Shown piece by piece: positions 1,321 through 26,218 of a stretch of DNA of 42,599 bases (positions are counted from its first letter, which is position 1; every line of letters begins with the position of its first letter). The stretch lies in the NCBI GenBank assembly GCA_028868905.1, contig JAGWTQ010000007.1:1-42599 (forward strand), read 5' to 3'. Under the pieces are notes generated by a model, which was given only the letters and a program-made list of their open reading frames with translations, was not told the DNA's origin and ran no database searches. Both the position numbers and the translations under genes were made by a program. This DNA comes from Betaproteobacteria bacterium. GTDB taxonomy: Bacteria; Pseudomonadota; Gammaproteobacteria; Burkholderiales; Ferrovaceae.

Positions 1321-1711
1321 AATGTTTACGGTGAACGGACGAGACCGCTACTTATATTTTTTATTGGCCGGTACAGCTTTTGGCCAACGGTGTGAACGTT
1401 GCTCGGCCGACCATGGACAAGAGCGTACCACCCAAAAAAACGGCTTGTCAAACATTTCGCACACGGCTTCACCCCCTTGCTGCAACATGTTGAAACACTT
1501 GTACGGCAAGGCGGAACAAGGTATTTGCTGTATGGAAAACGACCGTGATAGACTGCGCTACCGCGCCCGGTTTACCAGCCACACTACGTACTGTTTTCGC
1601 TGGTCGAACGGGCTCAGGATCAAGGGGGGCGCTGCCGGATATGCAGTTAATGACTTAAGCCGGAAGCCGCACAAAAAGGTTTTGTTTGGCACAGTTTATT
1701 TTATCTACAAG

Positions 1712-1726
1712 CCAATCTGGAGGGGG
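1712..1726 (+). repeat. 15-base leader repeat, cytochrome c4 copy
   Basis: CCAATCTGGAGGGGG, identical to the minus-strand copy at 1306-1320. It contains the ribosome binding site for the gene starting at 1732. Identity extends well beyond a Shine-Dalgarno core, so shared post-transcriptional control or a duplicated leader is possible. Confidence 0.85.
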
Positions 1727-1731
1727 AGTAC

Positions 1732-2478
1732 ATGCGTAAGTCAATGATCAAGTTTTCGTCGGGTATGGCGCTGGTTGCCATGCTCGTCAGCGGCTCGGTG
1801 TTTGCCAGCGAAGAATCTGCAATGCCCGGCGATCTTGCCAACGGCAAGAAAATTTTCACGGAAGGGAAAGGAGCTGCTGTGGCCTGCATGACTTGCCACG
1901 GAGAAACCGGCTGGGGCACTGAAGCCATGGGTGCGCCGCGCCTTGCCAATCTGGGCTACCCCTACATCGTCAAACAACTGACCGATCTGGCAGAAGGCCG
2001 CCGCGTGCCTTCGGGCGCTGGCGCTGTCATGCCGCTGTTTGCGCAGCAGCTCACGGAGCAGGATCGTCGTGATGTGGCTGCCTATGTGAACTCCTTCAAA
2101 ACGCAGCCCGAACTGTCCGATCTCAAAGCCCTCAAAGACAGCGGAACACCTGTCGGCGAAAAATATCTGGGCCAGGTCATCGTCAAGTATGGTGTGCTGG
2201 GCAAAGTGTCCGCCTGCCAGTCCTGCCATGGATACAACGGCCGTGGCGCCGCCCCCATGTTCCCGGTCATCGGTCAGCAAAAATACACGTACCTCGTCAA
2301 CCAGCTGCACAACTGGCGTGATGCCAGCCGTGCCAACGATCCTTACGGCATGATGCGCGCCATCGCCAAGAATCTGACGGACAACGACATCATCAATGTA
2401 GCCGCCTATCTTTCGTCGGCTCCCCGCACCACCGGGGAAACCAGGGATGGCACCACTGGCAACCCGAAAGCACAGTAA
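1732..2478 (+). CDS. Diheme cytochrome c4-type protein
   Basis: The 248-residue product has a Sec signal peptide ending in VFAS and two cytochrome c domains. Each has a CXXCH motif (CMTCH and CQSCH) followed by a plausible axial methionine (GAVMPLF in the first, PYGMMRA in the second) and the LTxxDxxxVAAY helix typical of cytochrome c4. Cytochrome c4 carries electrons in the periplasm from bc1-type complexes or donor proteins to terminal oxidases. It is about 40 residues longer than the second c4 in this window, with a longer linker and a Thr/Gly-rich tail. The start has a strong GGAGGGGG ribosome site and a strong terminator follows, so it is probably a single-gene unit, divergent from the HiPIP gene. 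Confidence 0.88.
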   Translation: MRKSMIKFSSGMALVAMLVSGSVFASEESAMPGDLANGKKIFTEGKGAAVACMTCHGETGWGTEAMGAPRLANLGYPYIVKQLTDLAEGRRVPSGAGAVMPLFAQQLTEQDRRDVAAYVNSFKTQPELSDLKALKDSGTPVGEKYLGQVIVKYGVLGKVSACQSCHGYNGRGAAPMFPVIGQQKYTYLVNQLHNWRDASRANDPYGMMRAIAKNLTDNDIINVAAYLSSAPRTTGETRDGTTGNPKAQ

Positions 2479-2533
2479 CGGCTGGCTCGGGCTGAAATCA
2501 GTCCGCAGAAGCACGTTGTATTGGCTCCATCTG

Positions 2534-2570
2534 AACCCGCGCGCTCAACGGCGCGCGGGTTTTGTTTTTG
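2534..2570 (+). terminator. Strong intrinsic terminator after cytochrome c4
   Basis: Arms AACCCGCGCGC (2534-2544) and GCGCGCGGGTT (2551-2561) pair perfectly over 11 bases around a 6-base loop. They are followed by TTGTTTTTG. This is a textbook rho-independent terminator separating the cytochrome c4 gene from the operon starting at 2599. Confidence 0.92.
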
Positions 2571-2598
2571 ATATCGGTACTTTGGGAGGTTGCAGGTC

Positions 2599-3171
2599 AT
2601 GAAATTCAGCCGCTTGAAACTGGGCGAAAAAATCCTGTTTGGCATCGTCGTCCTGATTTTTGTTTTTGCCGGCCTGAGTTTTGTGATGCTGGAGGTTTAC
2701 AGGTCCCATCTGGATCACCCCATGTACCCCACGACAACCCATTTCGATTTCACTCCGGAAGGCCTCCATGGGTCGGAGCTGTTCAGGGACCGCGGCTGTA
2801 CCTCCTGCCACCGTGCGGTGCGCAATGGAACAAACAACGGTGTCAATCTGGACGGGATCGGTTCGCGCCGCAGCCTGGATTATCTTCTGAGCTTCCTGAA
2901 AAAACCCGAGACCACTTATGAATCCAAGACACTGGATCACGGTCTCAACAAGGAAGCCGCCTATGTGGCCGGATTGCCTGATGCGGACCTTCACGCCATC
3001 GCCGTTTTTCTGTCAGAATTAAAGGCCACGCAAGGCTCAGCAGATGCACGCCTTCCCATGCCGGAACGTTCTGGTTTCGTGGATGAGATGGTCAAGATTT
3101 GGGCCCCCAGCACCTGGAAGCACGAATATCATGACTTGCGCCAGGATGCGATGCAGCCGCAAAAAAAGTAA
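2599..3171 (+). CDS. Membrane-anchored monoheme cytochrome c
   Basis: The 190-residue product has one N-terminal membrane anchor (about residues 11-31) and a periplasmic domain with one heme motif (CTSCH, C67-H71) and a C-terminal LPDADLHAIAVFL helix typical of class I cytochromes c. The layout resembles NorC and other tethered cytochromes that feed heme-copper oxidases. No methionine occurs between the heme motif and that helix, where the sixth iron ligand normally sits; the first is M154. H114 is a candidate substitute ligand. The start is ATG 2599 with GGGAGG nine bases upstream; a TTG at 2590 is less likely. It heads a four-gene operon with the oxidase-subunit-like protein 12 bases downstream, suggesting the two interact. 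The function is not established. Confidence 0.75.
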   Translation: MKFSRLKLGEKILFGIVVLIFVFAGLSFVMLEVYRSHLDHPMYPTTTHFDFTPEGLHGSELFRDRGCTSCHRAVRNGTNNGVNLDGIGSRRSLDYLLSFLKKPETTYESKTLDHGLNKEAAYVAGLPDADLHAIAVFLSELKATQGSADARLPMPERSGFVDEMVKIWAPSTWKHEYHDLRQDAMQPQKK

Positions 3172-3183
3172 GAGGTCTACAGC

Positions 3184-3702
3184 ATGACACCACAGCAACC
3201 TTTGAACCCAGGCATCGTCACGCGGGAATACACGCTGTTTACCCTGCTTTTTGTCTATGCCTGCATCACCTACGCCATCATCGGGTTTTCCTGGGGCGCA
3301 TTGATGGGAGGCATTCCAGCTTTCCGCATGTTTGTGGATACCGCACCCCACGGCAAACTGATCCTGCTGGCCCATGGCCATATCAACTTGCTGGGCTGGG
3401 TGGAAATGGCCATTTTCGGGGCCATCTACTATTTCGTTCCCCGCCTGGTCAACCGCCCCATTTACAGCATGTCGCTGGTGAAAATCCACTTCTGGATGCA
3501 CAATATCGGACTGATGGGAATGGTGATTCTGTTCACCACGGCCGGCATCATCGGCGGCTATGATCCCGGTCCTGAAGTGGAGACCACGGTGACCCACCTG
3601 ATGGCTGGCGTCGGTTTTTTTGGCACGCTGGTTCTTCTGGCCAACATCATCTGGGGTTACAACATTTTCAAGACGGGCAAACACGGCTCGGACGCGCCAT
3701 GA
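3184..3702 (+). CDS. Small four-helix protein resembling heme-copper oxidase subunit I
   Basis: The 172-residue product has four predicted membrane helices (about 16-40, 56-84, 97-124, 139-160). The element HGHINLLGW followed by FGAIYYFVPRL resembles the early part of NorB/CcoN-type subunit I, where a His ligates low-spin heme b. Histidines at 56, 64, 66, 102, 106 and 138 could bind one or two hemes. At 172 residues it is far shorter than a catalytic subunit (roughly 450 or more) and lacks the later helices that carry the CuB and high-spin heme ligands, so it cannot be a complete oxidase. It lies 12 bases after a tethered cytochrome c and overlaps the next gene by four bases. A membrane heme protein passing electrons between quinone and cytochrome c is my best guess. 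Confidence 0.65.
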   Translation: MTPQQPLNPGIVTREYTLFTLLFVYACITYAIIGFSWGALMGGIPAFRMFVDTAPHGKLILLAHGHINLLGWVEMAIFGAIYYFVPRLVNRPIYSMSLVKIHFWMHNIGLMGMVILFTTAGIIGGYDPGPEVETTVTHLMAGVGFFGTLVLLANIIWGYNIFKTGKHGSDAP

Positions 3703-4223
3703 CTGCACGCTTGCGGAAGCATCTGCTGGGTATTCTGACTGCTGTTTTCCTGGCTGGATGCAGCGGCAACCAACACAACTCGGGGTTGGAGCAGGGCGAG
3801 GTCGCGCCCAGCCTGCCCACCAAAACCCTTGCCGATGTGGGAGGGGATTTGAGCCGTATCACCACCTACCGCCAACCGGATGAGCGCATGTATCAGTATT
3901 CACTGGACAAGGCCCTGGCCTTGCGCAAGCCCATCCTGCTGGAGTTTGCGACACCAGGACACTGCTCCATCTGCGATCGCCAGTTGCAAATCACAAAGGC
4001 CATGCTCGACAAGTACCAATCGCAAGTACTGTTCCTGCACATGGACCAGTACGAAAACCCTGAAGCATTCAAGGCATACCGCGTCATGGGCGATCCTTGG
4101 ACTTTCGTCATCGACAGCAAGGGGATCGTGCGCTACCAGCAGCCGGGAGCCATGCTCTATGGGGAAATGGATCGCGCCATTCAGGGCGTCCTGGCCCAGC
4201 CAAGCCACGCTTCCGTCAACTGA
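3699..4223 (+). CDS. Thioredoxin-like lipoprotein
   Basis: The 174-residue product has a lipoprotein signal with lipobox LAGC (lipid-modified Cys21), then a thioredoxin-fold domain. The segment PILLEFATPGHCSICDRQ contains the active-site-like C89-S-I-C92, and MGDPWTFVIDSKGIVRY matches the later part of the fold. Such proteins reduce disulfides or deliver copper or heme-related thiols in the periplasm (SCO, TlpA and CcmG-like families). CSIC is not the classical CGPC or CEPC, so redox behaviour cannot be assigned. Its start ATGA overlaps the stop of the oxidase-subunit-like gene, implying translational coupling and a role in maturing or protecting that membrane heme protein or its partner cytochrome. 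Confidence 0.7.
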   Translation: MTARLRKHLLGILTAVFLAGCSGNQHNSGLEQGEVAPSLPTKTLADVGGDLSRITTYRQPDERMYQYSLDKALALRKPILLEFATPGHCSICDRQLQITKAMLDKYQSQVLFLHMDQYENPEAFKAYRVMGDPWTFVIDSKGIVRYQQPGAMLYGEMDRAIQGVLAQPSHASVN

Positions 4224-4242
4224 CTGTGCTGGCTTAATTTCC

Positions 4243-4695
4243 ATGAACCAAGGCACGCGCTACCTTCTCAAACAGGACAAGCAAGGCATGGTATGGGACT
4301 TGCTGCTCTATGTTCCGACGGTCACGGCCTTGCTGGGCATTGCAGCCAATGCCTGGTTTGGCGAAAACCCGAACTTGGCCTATCTGCTGGTTTTCCTGGG
4401 CAGCTTCTTTCTGATTGCCGGGGCCAACCGCATTCTAAAAACCCGCCTGATGCTGCTGCCTACTTCACCGGTAGCCATCAATGCATCAAAGCTGCATGCG
4501 ACGCTGGAGCTTCGCAACGGGCAGCGCGTGGAACTGCTCAAGGACATCAAGCTGTACAAGGACTATTCAGGCCGCTCTTTCGGGCTGACCGGCCTTAACA
4601 GCACCGGACAGCGACTGCAGTTCGTTTTCCACAAGGGACAGTTTGCCCTCGAACGGGACTACCAGGGCCTGCAGAATATTTACAAGCCGTCCTGA
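4243..4695 (+). CDS. Membrane protein of unknown function, last gene of the cytochrome operon
   Basis: The 150-residue product has two membrane helices (about residues 18-36 and 46-64) followed by a roughly 85-residue soluble domain rich in beta-strand-like alternation (for example the stretch around LHATLELRNGQRVELL). The start is ATG 4243, 19 bases after the preceding stop; the same frame stays open upstream inside the previous gene but lacks a better start. I do not recognise the family. A two-helix anchor plus small beta domain is reminiscent of PH-like membrane proteins, but that is only a shape comparison. It ends three bases before the convergent gene at 4699. Confidence 0.6.
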   Translation: MNQGTRYLLKQDKQGMVWDLLLYVPTVTALLGIAANAWFGENPNLAYLLVFLGSFFLIAGANRILKTRLMLLPTSPVAINASKLHATLELRNGQRVELLKDIKLYKDYSGRSFGLTGLNSTGQRLQFVFHKGQFALERDYQGLQNIYKPS

Positions 4696-4698
4696 GTT

Positions 4699-4899
4699 TC
4701 AGCGCCCCCGCCGCCGGCGGTACACATCCAAGGCCATGAAGCCGATGACACCGCCGACCAACAGGCAGGCCCCTCCCATCAAGGTATATTCCGTATCGGG
4801 ACTGACCAGCCCACCCACCAGCATGTGTACCGTGTAGGCCGTGAGAAAGAGGGAGCTCATGGTAACCACCAGGTATATCGCCAGTTCACGCAACGGCAT
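4699..4899 (-). CDS. Small two-helix membrane protein, unknown function
   Basis: The 66-residue product has two hydrophobic segments (about residues 5-30 and 37-57) and a very basic tail ending RRRRGR, which should face the cytoplasm. The ATG at 4899 has an excellent GGGAGGGGG ribosome site, and the gene begins 17 bases after the stop of the polytopic membrane protein, so it is probably co-transcribed with it and the cytochrome c4 upstream. I do not recognise the family. Confidence 0.6.
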   Translation of the reverse strand: MPLRELAIYLVVTMSSLFLTAYTVHMLVGGLVSPDTEYTLMGGACLLVGGVIGFMALDVYRRRRGR

Positions 4900-4916
4900 G
4901 ACGCCCCCTCCCCCAT

Positions 4917-6395
4917 TCAGCGCGCGGAGTCGGGCGCCGTCACCGGTGCAGCGGGCAATGGCGCCAGAACCGGCGAGCGCACCTTGAGAATGACGCCTCC
5001 GGGCTGGAGCGATACCGTTTCCACGCTTGTGCCAAGCTGCGAAAGATTTTGGACCAGCCCAATATTTTTCTGTGCATTGGGCGCAAAAATCAGATGGGTC
5101 AATCCCCGCATCATCGCCAACTGGGTTTCAGGATCCTTGGCTGCAGGAGGCAGTGACAGCGCATCGCAACGACAGGCAATCATGGTCCGGGCAGGCCACT
5201 GACTGGCCACCCGGATGCGGGGCATGGGCAAGCGCTTTTCCTCCATGGCCACCCTCGTTCTGTCCACGTCGTCGGCGAACTGGCGGATCAGCTGGTCTTG
5301 TGCAGGCATTACCCCGTTTTTGCCTTGCTCGTACCAGATGCGATCACTTCGCATGAACAAGGTGGAAAGAATCACCACCAACAGCAGCAGCCATCCCCGC
5401 TGCAGGAAGAAGCCCTTCCCGGTCAGCAACTCCCTGGGTTTCAGGAGCCACTCGAAACCGCCGTAGCACAACAGTGAAACCGCCAGAAATCCCCACGAAG
5501 CATCACACAGGAACGCGCCCAGTACAGTCCCCCACCAGAGGGAACGTCCCAGCAGGTCATTCCAGAACAGGCGCCGTTGCCCTATGAGCAGCATCACCAG
5601 CAGCCCGGTAAGTACCAGGCCGGCGGCCCATTCGCCCGTATCGAGTTCTGGCGACTCCAGGTCGCTGGCTGTAATCCACGTCACCGCCTGGCGCAGGGGA
5701 TTCTGCCACCCGCCCAGATCAGGCCAGCCCCAGCGCAGCAGCAACGCAATGAAGCTGACCACGGCAATGCCGGCATAAAAGTAGCGCTGCTGGATGCGGT
5801 CCAGAGGCTTCGTGCGCCAGGCCCAGGCCAGGGACAAGGGATAGGCAAGTCCGGCCGGATGCAGGCTCACTGCGAAAGCGCACAGCGCCAGTTGCGCAAA
5901 ATACAGCCCCCCGAAATGTCTTGGCGCTTCCCGATATGCACGGTCCAGCCAGTACCCCGCCGTGAAAACGGCCAGCAGCAAAACCCCGGGGGAAAGGGTG
6001 TCGATCTGCTGCAGGCTGACCGGTGCGATCAGCAACAACCCCGTGGCCAGCAATGCAACTTCTTCGGATCCGGTTTGCCGGCGCCAGCTGTACAGGCCGT
6101 GGGCCGTCCAGGCGAGAACGGCTATCAGGACCACTTTGGCCACAATGATCTGTCCAGGCCAGAGAAACCCGAGTGGCAGCCAGAGAATGGCGCGCATATC
6201 CGGCAACCCCAGGGTGACAACCGAGCTCGCCACCTGGTCACCTATGGACCAGTCCAGCAACAGGGCCTTGGCCCCGCCCTCGTCCAGCACGTAAGGCGAG
6301 TGGCGCAGCAACAGGATCATGAGGATGGCCCATAGGGCCAACGACAGATAACCCCAAACGCGGAGAGTGATCAGGGCAGGCTTCACTTCAGTCAA
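4917..6395 (-). CDS. Polytopic membrane protein, unknown function
   Basis: The 492-residue product has roughly nine to eleven membrane helices in its first 360 residues and a soluble C-terminal domain of about 130 residues. The layout resembles GT-C-type glycosyltransferases or mannosyltransferases, and an acidic DEGGAK element lies in the first loop after helix 1, where GT-C enzymes carry catalytic acidic residues. I see no decisive motif. The start is uncertain: reading opens at a TTG (6395) three bases after the stop of the cytochrome c4 gene, with a GTG three codons later, and neither has a clear ribosome site. Translational coupling to the cytochrome gene is therefore likely. Confidence 0.6.
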   Translation of the reverse strand: MTEVKPALITLRVWGYLSLALWAILMILLLRHSPYVLDEGGAKALLLDWSIGDQVASSVVTLGLPDMRAILWLPLGFLWPGQIIVAKVVLIAVLAWTAHGLYSWRRQTGSEEVALLATGLLLIAPVSLQQIDTLSPGVLLLAVFTAGYWLDRAYREAPRHFGGLYFAQLALCAFAVSLHPAGLAYPLSLAWAWRTKPLDRIQQRYFYAGIAVVSFIALLLRWGWPDLGGWQNPLRQAVTWITASDLESPELDTGEWAAGLVLTGLLVMLLIGQRRLFWNDLLGRSLWWGTVLGAFLCDASWGFLAVSLLCYGGFEWLLKPRELLTGKGFFLQRGWLLLLVVILSTLFMRSDRIWYEQGKNGVMPAQDQLIRQFADDVDRTRVAMEEKRLPMPRIRVASQWPARTMIACRCDALSLPPAAKDPETQLAMMRGLTHLIFAPNAQKNIGLVQNLSQLGTSVETVSLQPGGVILKVRSPVLAPLPAAPVTAPDSAR

Positions 6396-6398
6396 GGT

Positions 6399-7019
6399 TC
6401 AATGCAGGCCGGCGGTAAAGTCCGCCAGTGCCTTGATTTCCTGGTTGCTCAGGCGATGGGCGACGGCTCGCATGATGCCGGAAGGGTCATTGCTGCGCGA
6501 ACCGTTCTTGAAGTGCTGCAGCTGTATTTCGGTGTATTCCTGATACTGTCCCGACAACCGGGGAAAGAGTGCGGGAATTCCGCTCCCGGTCGGACCATGG
6601 CAACCGGAGCAGGCGGGAACCCCCCGGTCGGCATCGCCTGCACGCCAAAGTTTCTCTCCCATAGCCACCAGCTTCGGGCTGGTTGCTTGCGACCTTTTCG
6701 GAGGCTGTTCGGCGTACCAGGCCGCCACGTTCCGGATATCTTCTTCCGAAAGCATCGACACAATGCCGGACATGATGGGATTGTTCCGCGCCGGAGGGGC
6801 TCCGTTGATGGATTTCATGTTGTTCAGTTGCTTGGCGGTGTAATCCGGCAACTGGGCAGCCAGGTGAGGCTGGGTGGGAATCGGGCTGACGCCGTCAGCG
6901 CCATGGCAGGCAAAACACACGGAAGTGGCAATCACTTTGCCTTTCTGCGCATCCCCCTGAAACGCCCAGGACGACGTGGATAATACAGCCAACAATGCCA
7001 GTACAGCCGTTTTCCTCAT
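6399..7019 (-). CDS. Second diheme cytochrome c4
   Basis: The 206-residue product has a signal peptide (MRKTAVLALLAVLSTSSWAF) and two c-type heme domains: CFACH and CSGCH, with axial methionine candidates in NPIMSGI and SGIMRAV. Length and layout are those of classical cytochrome c4, a periplasmic electron carrier to terminal oxidases. The start is ATG 7019 with GGAG upstream; the frame is open further upstream, but that part does not resemble a signal peptide. It leads a three-gene minus-strand group with two unknown membrane proteins and is a paralog of the longer c4 gene at 1732. Confidence 0.88.
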   Translation of the reverse strand: MRKTAVLALLAVLSTSSWAFQGDAQKGKVIATSVCFACHGADGVSPIPTQPHLAAQLPDYTAKQLNNMKSINGAPPARNNPIMSGIVSMLSEEDIRNVAAWYAEQPPKRSQATSPKLVAMGEKLWRAGDADRGVPACSGCHGPTGSGIPALFPRLSGQYQEYTEIQLQHFKNGSRSNDPSGIMRAVAHRLSNQEIKALADFTAGLH

Positions 7020-7075
7020 GCTCGCTCCTCGCAGCTTGACGCCCCATGACCGGGGGGGTGCCGGGTGACCGCAGT

Positions 7076-7081
7076 ATTTTA

Positions 7082-7084
<3 letters not shown>
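7076..7084 (-). promoter_or_regulatory. Candidate extended -10 promoter for the cytochrome c4 group
   Basis: The minus strand reads TGATAAAAT, matching an extended -10 (TGn followed by TAAAAT). Its TGA is also the uvrD stop codon. It lies about 57 bases before the cytochrome c4 start. The -35 position (GACTGA) is poor, as allowed for extended -10 promoters. Confidence 0.35.
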
Positions 7085-11764
<4,680 letters not shown>

Positions 11765-24277: not shown

Positions 24278-26215
24278 TCAGGCAGAAGCCTGGCCGCCCA
24301 GGTAAGCTTCAATAACTTTAGGATCGGATTGCACTGCCGCAGGCTGTCCTTCCGCAATCTTCTGGCCGAAGTCCAGCACCGATACCACGTCGGAAATGCC
24401 CATCACCACATCCATGTGGTGTTCGATCAGGATCACGGTAATGCCATGTTCCCGGATCTTGCGGATGATTTCGATCAGATCCTTGATTTCAGGAGACGTC
24501 AGTCCTGCAGCGGGCTCGTCCAGCAAAAGCAGCGCGGGGTTAAGCCCCAGGGCGCGCCCGATTTCCAGCAGGCGCTGGCGACCATAGGGCAGGTTGCGTG
24601 CCTCTTCGTTCATGAAGGCTTCCAGCCCGACGAAACGCAGGATGCTGGCTGCGCGGGTCCGGGCAGCCGCCTCTTCGCGTCTGTAACGGGGCGTGCCGAG
24701 CATGACGTCGATCAGGTTGGACTTGTAGGTGTGATGCAACCCCACCAGCACGTTTTCCAGCGCCGTCATTTCGCCGAACAGCTGCAGATTCTGGAAAGTC
24801 CTTGCCATCCCCTGCAATGCGATGGCCGAAGGCGTGTCGCCGGAAATCGTGCTGCCGTTGAAAACGACACTCCCCTGGGTTGGCGTATAAATTCCCGTCA
24901 GCACGTTCATCATGGTGGATTTGCCTGAGCCGTTGGGCCCGATCAATCCATGAATTGAACCGCGTGCCACGGACAGATCGACCTGGTTGAGCGCCTTGAG
25001 GCCACCAAACTGCATCAGGATCTGCCGGGCTTCGAGCAAAGGTCCGGCTTTTTTCACGGCATGGTCCGGTGCGGCCCACACCTGCCCTTCCCCGTTCTTG
25101 TCGACCGCCAGCGCGCGCGTCACCCATTGCGGCCGATAATGCCCGATCACGTTGCGGGCCCATCCGATGATGCCTTCCTGCAGGTAGTACACCACGAACA
25201 GGATCAGGAAACCAAAAATGGTGATGCGCCAGTCGGTCATTTCCTGCAGCTTGTGTGCGCTCCACTCCAGCGCAATTGCACCCACCACGGGGATGGCCAG
25301 TGGCTTGAGCGAGCGATTTCGGGAAATGAAATGACGCACGACGAAAAGTACCACGCCGATGGCGATGATGTGGGCCAAAACCCGGAACAACTCGATGTCA
25401 TTCAGCACGTTGGGGAGCAACACCACAATGGCGGCACCCAGCACCGGCCCGAGCCGTGTCTTGCGCCCTCCCATGATGAGCGCCAGCAGGAACAGCACAG
25501 TCAACTCGAAGTTGAATGTGTTGGGCGCAATGTAGAGCTCGTTGAATGTGAACATGCCCCCGGCCAGCCCTGCAAGTCCTGCGCTGATGACAAATGCAAA
25601 CACCTTGTAGAAATAAACGCTGACCCCCATGCAGTCCGAGGCTACCGGGCTCCCACGCAAGGCTTCGAATGCGCGGCCCAAATGGGATTTGAGAATCCGG
25701 TTGATGAGCAGCATCGCCAACAGGAAGATCGCGATGACCACGTAGTAATAATGCTGTTCTTCCAGAATGAAGCCAAACAGCTCGGGCTTCTTGATGGTGA
25801 TGCCCAGCGGCCCGTTGGTGAGGAAGTCCATCTCGTTGATCAGGATCTGGGCAATGGTGCCAAATGCCAGCGTCACCATGGCTAGGTAAGGGCCCGTGAC
25901 CCGCAGGGCAGGCAGCGCCAGCAGCAGACCGAATGCGGCGGTGACGAAAATACTGGAAGGAATGGCCAGGTAGAAGGGCCAGCCGAGCTTCCAGTTGAGA
26001 ATGCCCGCCGCATAGGCGCCAATGCCGAATAGCCCGGCATGGGCCAGGGACACTTCCCCGGTATAGCCGACGACGATATCCAGCCCAAACAGCAGCACCG
26101 CATAGATGGCAATCAGCACCACCTGATGCACGTAGTATTCGTTGTCAATCCACTGGGGCAATACGGCCAGCAGGGCAAAAATGGCCAGCAAACCCAAAAT
26201 TCGAACAGCTTTCAT
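24278..26215 (-). CDS. Fused LivM permease and LivG ATPase
   Basis: The 645-residue protein joins a LivM-type permease (about residues 1-360; FGLDIVVGYTGEVSLAHAGLFG and a GSPVASDCMGV loop are the permease hallmarks) to a LivG-type ATPase (about 390-645). ATPase motifs are Walker A GPNGSGKST (about 426-434), the LPYGRQ signature typical of LivG, and Walker B LLLLDEP. Fusing permease and ATPase keeps them in fixed stoichiometry. Before the last permease helix there is an extra segment (about 300-330) beyond the usual LivM. The linker is DKNGEGQVWAAPDHAVKK. I start at ATG 26215; the TTG immediately before it is less likely. It overlaps nothing and follows livH by three bases. Confidence 0.93.
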   Translation of the reverse strand: MKAVRILGLLAIFALLAVLPQWIDNEYYVHQVVLIAIYAVLLFGLDIVVGYTGEVSLAHAGLFGIGAYAAGILNWKLGWPFYLAIPSSIFVTAAFGLLLALPALRVTGPYLAMVTLAFGTIAQILINEMDFLTNGPLGITIKKPELFGFILEEQHYYYVVIAIFLLAMLLINRILKSHLGRAFEALRGSPVASDCMGVSVYFYKVFAFVISAGLAGLAGGMFTFNELYIAPNTFNFELTVLFLLALIMGGRKTRLGPVLGAAIVVLLPNVLNDIELFRVLAHIIAIGVVLFVVRHFISRNRSLKPLAIPVVGAIALEWSAHKLQEMTDWRITIFGFLILFVVYYLQEGIIGWARNVIGHYRPQWVTRALAVDKNGEGQVWAAPDHAVKKAGPLLEARQILMQFGGLKALNQVDLSVARGSIHGLIGPNGSGKSTMMNVLTGIYTPTQGSVVFNGSTISGDTPSAIALQGMARTFQNLQLFGEMTALENVLVGLHHTYKSNLIDVMLGTPRYRREEAAARTRAASILRFVGLEAFMNEEARNLPYGRQRLLEIGRALGLNPALLLLDEPAAGLTSPEIKDLIEIIRKIREHGITVILIEHHMDVVMGISDVVSVLDFGQKIAEGQPAAVQSDPKVIEAYLGGQASA

Positions 26216-26218
26216 CAA

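Follow-up and report, generated by a model that had tools for sequence, protein, structure and literature searches.

How iron oxidizers carry electrons from c4-type cytochromes on to oxygen has been worked out only in outline, and no recognisable CcoP occurs in their cbb3 oxidase clusters. In Ferrovum JA12 only subunits I and II were found, and a co-localised cytochrome c has been proposed to replace subunit III (available parts of PMC4725956). In Sideroxydans, whose genome has two cbb3 types, the homolog of Mariprofundus cyc1 is located with a cbb3 gene cluster (excerpts of PMC8788666); according to the accessible parts of PMC5513912, Zetaproteobacteria without cbb3 are also without cyc1. A conserved extra module at the cbb3 oxidase of such organisms is a direct experimental target.

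The locus described here lies in a window of 42,599 nucleotides (the whole stretch of DNA that was analysed), from a Ferrovaceae-like genome of 1.75 Mb that is 87.7% complete. At its centre is a protein of 172 residues that resembles one third of the cbb3 catalytic subunit CcoN, and which we call mini-CcoN.

The gene set and its conservation

Four open reading frames on the + strand, at positions 2599-4695, encode a cytochrome c, mini-CcoN, a thioredoxin-like (Trx) lipoprotein and a two-helix protein (Table 1). They are tightly packed: the cytochrome c and mini-CcoN genes are 12 bases apart, the mini-CcoN and lipoprotein genes overlap by 4 bases, and the last gap measures 19 bases. An earlier note, made from the letters of this DNA, had described four same-strand genes with these spacings behind a strong terminator, and all of this was borne out. 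With 13 pairs against 5-8, the stem ahead of the set is the longest of six terminator-like sites in positions 1500-6000; the number of such sites is itself not above chance (shuffles: mean 5.0, sd 2.6). A search of the same region for sigma-70-like promoters returned none, the mean in shuffles being 1.8.

Table 1. Features of the locus, with positions in the window
Feature	Positions	Strand	Remarks
HiPIP/Iro-like gene	993-1298	opposite	28.4 bits, below cut-off; left of the c4 gene
Multiheme gene		opposite	left of the c4 gene; sub-cut-off QrcA match, 70.5 of 180 bits
Diheme c4-type cytochrome c	1732-2478	+	two Cytochrom_C stretches; upstream partner
Terminator-like stem	2533-2562	+	between the c4 gene and the four genes; 13 pairs, 9 G-C, T run
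Membrane-tethered monoheme cytochrome c, 190 aa	2599-3171	+	one CXXCH, N-terminal helix; PF00034, 36 bits
Mini-CcoN, 172 aa, four TM helices	3184-3702	+	partial PF00115 match; equivalent of cbb3 CcoN repeat unit 3
Codons H64-G65-H66	3373-3381	+	within the mini-CcoN gene; H-x-H, putative heme-ligand pair, kept in relatives
Thioredoxin-fold lipoprotein, 174 aa	3699-4223	+	LAGC lipobox, CSIC (CxxC)
Two-helix membrane protein, 150 aa	4243-4695	+	C-terminal beta domain in the predicted model, perhaps PH-like

A second diheme c4-type cytochrome frame, at 6399-7187 on the - strand, groups by similarity with the c4 gene of Table 1. Elsewhere in the window, a 646-aa frame at 24278-26218 (- strand) resembles, on inspection by eye, a branched-chain amino-acid/urea ABC permease-ATPase fusion; it has an ATPase gene on one side and another permease gene on the other.

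Scanning one genome per species, we found 219 relatives of the 172-residue protein and kept the best 80, so that the locus counts below describe the closest third or so. These 80 come from Ferrovum, Gallionella, Sideroxydans, Mariprofundaceae and many marine Gammaproteobacteria; the closest that bear a name belong to Ferrovaceae and Ferrovum, Ferrovum myxofaciens P3G (86%) among them. Counts were made over 79 loci, the one omitted coming from a Ferrovum MAG in which the mini-CcoN gene is split over two frames (L033:6001-6512), through a frameshift or an assembly error.

In profile searches the tethered cytochrome c gene stands directly upstream of mini-CcoN in all 74 testable loci, the lipoprotein gene directly downstream in 78 of 79, and the two-helix gene downstream in 77 of 79, each on the same strand. 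This recurrence of order and strand shows the reading frames to be real genes. The exceptions are L034, which is without both the lipoprotein and the two-helix genes and ends at a contig end, on a contig that is possibly mis-binned, and L022, which is without the two-helix protein. The neighbourhood proposed for checking in the earlier note is conserved, and the case that the note named as refuting, genes that do not co-occur in other genomes, did not arise. In 67 of the 69 loci where this could be tested, an open reading frame with two CXXCH motifs, of c4 type, stands ahead of the four genes. The conserved set thus includes the c4 gene at 1732-2478, and the interval 2599-4695 is too narrow.

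Mini-CcoN and the units of oxidase subunit I

The 172-residue protein matches the Pfam COX1 family (PF00115) with 51.6 bits, above the cut-off of 34.8. The match is partial and pairs residues 29-125 with positions 308-405 of a model of 436; all 67 members of the mini-CcoN alignment (67 of the 80 sequences were used) match the same family at E up to 0.1. An AlphaFold2 model with a mean pLDDT of 88.4 predicts four long helices and some short ones. The best Foldseek hits of this model are cbb3 CcoN chains (6xkw_n, E 3.2e-4, TMq 0.77), and by VIA-align it covers residues 356-523 of 6xkw_n.

For comparison with the three repeat units of CcoN (24 sequences) in hhalign, tree and ligand counts, we used 16 of 20 fetched CcoN loci (L097, L105, L111 and L113 were dropped); 8 of 32 divergent CcoN were used in the hhalign, tree and ligand comparisons. 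The mini-CcoN profile meets the third unit at E 3.3e-26 in hhalign, against 2.3e-8 for the first and 2.2e-9 for the second. The window protein itself matches the CcoN of its own genome in three places (E 2e-11, 5e-4 and 0.02). Judged by sequence and predicted fold, mini-CcoN is one of the three four-helix units of oxidase subunit I, nearest to the third unit of cbb3 CcoN.

An origin in the heme-copper oxidases, with loss of the helices of the CuB site, had been suggested before, and the partial COX1 match, the Foldseek result and the ligand alignment agree with it. The further claim that the protein cannot on its own make up a complete oxidase or NO reductase also stands: where an oxidase core has three units and twelve helices, with the CuB ligands and the bis-His low-spin pair in one chain, mini-CcoN has one four-helix unit; it keeps the H-x-H of the third unit, and the second unit with its CuB histidines is absent. 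We reject the suggested membership of the NorCB nitric oxide reductases. A profile search of the PDB places cbb3 CcoN (3mk7_A, E 8.4e-15) nearer than NorB (4xyd_A, E 9.2e-9), a full NorB with an FeB site is absent, and mini-CcoN is a single unit.

A match to a described small oxidase subunit, which the earlier note had named as refuting its reading, did not turn up for mini-CcoN in Pfam, NCBIfam or PDB sequence searches; NCBIfam returns it as a partial ccoN, and for the other three proteins of the set gives weak, sub-cut-off matches only. Nor did we find a description of it in the open-access papers searched. Plasmid records matching mini-CcoN number 223; the best ones listed are annotated as cbb3 subunit I, and the one inspected is a full-length gene of 1731 bases, not a mini.

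The helix-2 core of mini-CcoN aligns without gaps with all three CcoN units, so the ligand positions can be read column by column. Position 64 is histidine in all 24 first units, 2 of 24 second units and all 24 third units; position 66 in 2 of 24 first units and in all second and third units (24/24 each). Both histidines are present in 67 of 67 mini-CcoN and in 12 of 12 members of a second family of single-unit proteins, described below. An HFW motif is also shared by mini-CcoN and the third unit. Two other residues, E74 and H106, are invariant in mini-CcoN and absent from the CcoN units (position 106 is H in 1 of 24 third units) and from the second mini family; mini-CcoN has thus acquired features of its own.

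In CcoN, we take the low-spin heme to be held by position 66 of the third unit paired with position 64 of the first, and the catalytic site by position 66 of the second unit (CuB) paired with position 64 of the third (b3). Each used pore would then join position 66 of one unit with position 64 of the next; with H64 in units 1 and 3 and H66 in units 2 and 3, the pore with neither histidine is empty. Such a pair is impossible within a lone unit and possible in an oligomer, and we therefore propose that mini-CcoN is oligomeric. Helix 2 carries 11 consecutive invariant residues and has no variable side (conservation moment p 0.38), weakly suggesting a buried helix; since helix 4 likewise has no significant moment (p 0.42), a missing moment alone is weak evidence of burial. 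For helices 1 and 3 the moment gives p 0.029 and p under 0.001. The oligomer might be a homotrimer, a three-fold symmetric stand-in for the oxidase core with the same bis-His heme b site formed three times, an arrangement that we consider rather unlikely. If true, nature would here use the oxidase fold, in a c4–cbb3 respiratory branch, for a membrane cytochrome that carries three identical hemes and lacks a catalytic metal.

As to its origin, we tested through unit scores and a tree whether mini-CcoN is a relic of an ancestral single unit. Against unit 1, hhalign scores mini-CcoN at 54.1 and unit 3 at 45.5; against unit 2, the values are 59.6 and 51.2. These scores favour mini-CcoN through its deeper alignment, 67 rows against 24 for CcoN. 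The mean BLOSUM per column is 0.73 for mini-CcoN and 0.42 for unit 3 against unit 1, and 1.10 and 0.70 against unit 2. In a tree of 56 columns, both mini families group with unit 3 (89/79.5, not starred, with long-branch warnings), and mini-CcoN with unit 3 alone as a clade has a p-AU of 0.482. Because mini-CcoN is by far closest to unit 3 and the tree groups them, we prefer derivation from the third unit.

Partner proteins and the divergent cbb3 oxidase

In the tethered cytochrome c, residues C67, C70 and H71 are invariant in 28 of 28 sequences. The window protein shares 27% identity with the cytochrome c in the cbb3 operon of its own genome (E 1e-11), and matches the Pfam CBB3 model weakly (16.0 bits, cut-off 27). 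None of the four proteins of the set has a match at E up to 1 to the Pfam models FixG, FixH, FixP, FixQ and FixS.

The Trx lipoprotein keeps the lipobox C21, H88, C89, C92 and P133 of its GDPW in 29 of 29 sequences, and all 29 match the AhpC-TSA and Thioredoxin models at E up to 0.01. The window protein matches general Trx-fold Pfam models below their cut-offs and has no match to SCO1-SenC (PF02630) at E up to 1.

For the two-helix protein, the AlphaFold2 model (mean pLDDT 90.5) predicts two helices, beta strands and a C-terminal helix. Structure comparison with the PDB families of the VIA lists gave PH/PTB/FERM-type folds at no better than Z about 6-7, and we tentatively regard the modelled beta domain as PH-like. 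Foldseek found nothing at E up to 0.001, a PDB sequence search nothing at E up to 5, and no Pfam family was convincing (best E 0.0065 among 43 members, the matches being scattered).

The earlier note saw in these genes a reduced or repurposed oxidase/NorCB-type module that passes electrons, although electron transfer through it is conjectural. It missed the full oxidase outside the window: the four-gene set is not free-standing but accompanies a complete, divergent cbb3 oxidase in which no CcoP could be recognised. We counted mini-CcoN at E below 1e-70, the next match in 398 genomes being at 2e-20; at E up to 1e-5, matches occur in 301 of the 398, the counted ones included, and those listed are mostly frames of CcoN length. 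In this phylum sample, mini-CcoN is present in 45 genomes and the divergent CcoO in 42: 39 have both, 6 mini-CcoN only, 3 CcoO only and 350 neither, the positives being confined to four family codes, so that the genomes are not independent and the Fisher value for these counts should not be read as a probability. In an order sample of 300 genomes, mini-CcoN is found in 13 and CcoO in 12, with 12 having both, 1 mini-CcoN only, 0 CcoO only and 287 neither. CcoO thus accompanies mini-CcoN in 39/45 and 12/13 genomes.

All six mini-only genomes of the phylum sample are less than 90% complete, and the three CcoO-only genomes are 68, 87 and 90% complete; the mini-only genome of the order sample (G466) is 99% complete. 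A family member without one gene (G545) is also without the other.

Both genes lie on one contig and strand, with starts within 8 kb, in 21 of the 39 genomes. A divergent CcoN occurs in the examined flank of 41 of 79 loci, 39 on the same strand and 2 on the opposite one. Among 46 non-Ferrovum loci with at least 4.4 kb downstream, 35 have CcoN, 13 the second mini family, 43 either or both, and 3 neither. Of the 21 Ferrovum-type loci, none shows CcoN within the flank of 6 kb, since the oxidase of that family sits at a distance of about 12 kb on the opposite strand: this is the case in 6 of the 8 family genomes with both genes, and in the other 2 they are on different contigs. In a Ferrovaceae relative (L115), the cbb3 operon, alternative-complex-III-like genes (molybdopterin, NrfD and pentaheme types), HiPIP, c4 and the four genes succeed one another in this order within 19 kb. 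In L116, a complete genome from a different family, the four genes come after CcoN and CcoO and share their strand.

The cbb3 operon of the source genome (locus L086) encodes a CcoN with 262.8 bits to COX1 and 227 of the required 583 bits to the NCBIfam CcoN model, and a CcoO that matches FixO. Further genes of the operon encode a tethered cytochrome c, a protein weakly resembling FixS, and one of 214 aa that lacks a heme motif and matches FixP_N weakly (15.6 bits, below cut-off). A SCO1/SenC gene (120.8 bits) is present separately in the genome. From the synteny in the published excerpts, we infer that the window c4 is the Cyc1 of Mariprofundus; by analogy with the available parts of PMC8788666 and PMC7029218, the divergent cbb3 is probably the 'distal' type of Ducluzeau et al.

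The second mini family consists of single-unit oxidase-like proteins of about 170-180 aa with H-x-H (L086:6364-6909, and at L027, L036, L042 and other loci), and its 12 aligned members all match COX1. In the source genome and in Gallionella-type loci, its gene adjoins one for a CcoG/FixG-like polyferredoxin (FixG_C 18.2 bits, below cut-off), in a cluster that also holds two small genes without a Pfam match. The 'Polyferredoxin and three hypotheticals' of Ca. Tenderia may be this cluster. Next to the CcoG-like cluster in L086 is an 881-aa protein (9031-11676) with a membrane part and a spermidine-synthase-like domain (24.3 bits). Two formylglycine-generating-enzyme-like (SUMF1) proteins are encoded at L086:12252-13475 and 5205-5957, one in the cbb3 operon and one beside SCO1/SenC.

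Proposed role and comparison with known systems

We tentatively propose, with a probability of roughly 45%, that the four genes and c4 encode an oligomeric accessory b/c-heme subcomplex of one c4–cbb3 terminal-oxidase branch. The tethered cytochrome c would dock c4 at the membrane and replace the missing CcoP. Mini-CcoN would bind a b heme and function only as an oligomer, since one unit gives only half of each heme site. Together they would form a small bc-type subcomplex on the periplasmic side, either inside the oxidase or adjoining it, with the two-helix protein as a possible scaffold and the Trx lipoprotein keeping heme-attachment cysteines or a metal site reduced. Against this proposal, a single heme near the periplasmic face would have no obvious electron acceptor of its own, and the co-occurrence is concentrated in few families, with mini-only (6 + 1) and CcoO-only (3) genomes.

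The co-occurrence with the divergent cbb3 also fits an assembly module, the main rival, which we regard as quite possible though short of an even chance. Mini-CcoN would then hold heme b, perhaps copper, and pass it to the divergent CcoN or template that protein while being absent from the finished enzyme, and the Trx lipoprotein would be a Sco/TlpA-like reductant for copper or c-heme sites. The invariant H88-C-x-x-C of the lipoprotein and the position of the second mini family beside a CcoG/FixG-like gene suit such a role, and to that extent count against an accessory subcomplex. However, the set opens with the gene of a c-type cytochrome, next to that of a donor-like c4, which would be superfluous for assembly factors; the genome already has its own SCO1/SenC gene, and the window lipoprotein is without a SCO1-SenC match.

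The single-unit fold with conserved putative heme ligands, and the soluble beta domain of the adjoining two-helix protein, could also suggest a sensory or regulatory membrane protein for O2, NO or redox state, with no part in electron flow or assembly; we find this very improbable, as the conserved set has no output domain or regulator gene and its partners are a cytochrome c and a Trx lipoprotein. That mini-CcoN, nearest as it is to the third CcoN unit, is what is left of a second ccoN gene, decaying and retained by chance, is scarcely credible given about 50 invariant columns among 67 sequences (identity down to 57%), intact frames with L033 alone in two, and fixed order in 79 loci.

Known relatives of the lipoprotein are the Sco, TlpA and thioredoxin lipoproteins: it shares their Trx fold, lipobox and CxxC, and differs in its lack of a SCO1-SenC match and in Trx-fold matches that stay below cut-offs. 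Another four-helix family, DUF2871 (PF11070, about 134 aa), is matched by 62 of 67 mini-CcoN at E up to 0.1 (best 3e-6), whereas the window mini-CcoN, with 15.8 bits, stays under the cut-off of 27.4. To judge from sequence, DUF2871 too may consist of one four-helix unit of oxidase type. Our search for it found none at 1e-6 in 200 genomes and 14 controls, a result that does not show absence; one control genome, Haloferax volcanii, has a below-cut-off match at E up to 0.001.

NorC/NorB has the same order of a tethered cytochrome c gene followed by one of heme-copper fold. In contrast, the window set has no unit for FeB ligands, its NorB match is weaker than that to CcoN, and a full cbb3 is present. 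The Cyc1 (c4)–cbb3 branch of neutrophilic iron oxidizers is similar in its organisms and in the c4-type gene adjoining the cbb3 cluster; the available parts of the papers (PMC8788666, PMC5513912, PMC5371394) describe Cyc1 and oxidase subunits, not mini-CcoN or the four-gene set.

Closest of all is cbb3 CcoN itself (PF00115, TIGR00780; PDB 3mk7, 6xkw, 9g6b), whose third unit shares with mini-CcoN the H-x-H, the HFW motif and the fold (TMq 0.77-0.78). Mini-CcoN differs in having four helices rather than twelve, in the lack of units 1 and 2 and of CuB ligands, and in the additional E74 and H106. Mini-CcoN corresponds to just the last third of an oxidase core. Its presence in iron-oxidizing and related bacteria, within a set of four genes that is found mostly in genomes with the divergent cbb3 oxidase, points to an accessory component of that enzyme which has gone unrecognised. 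As a natural single oxidase-fold unit, it makes the building of heme sites in the three-unit core testable, because the pairing of ligands between units becomes a pairing between chains.
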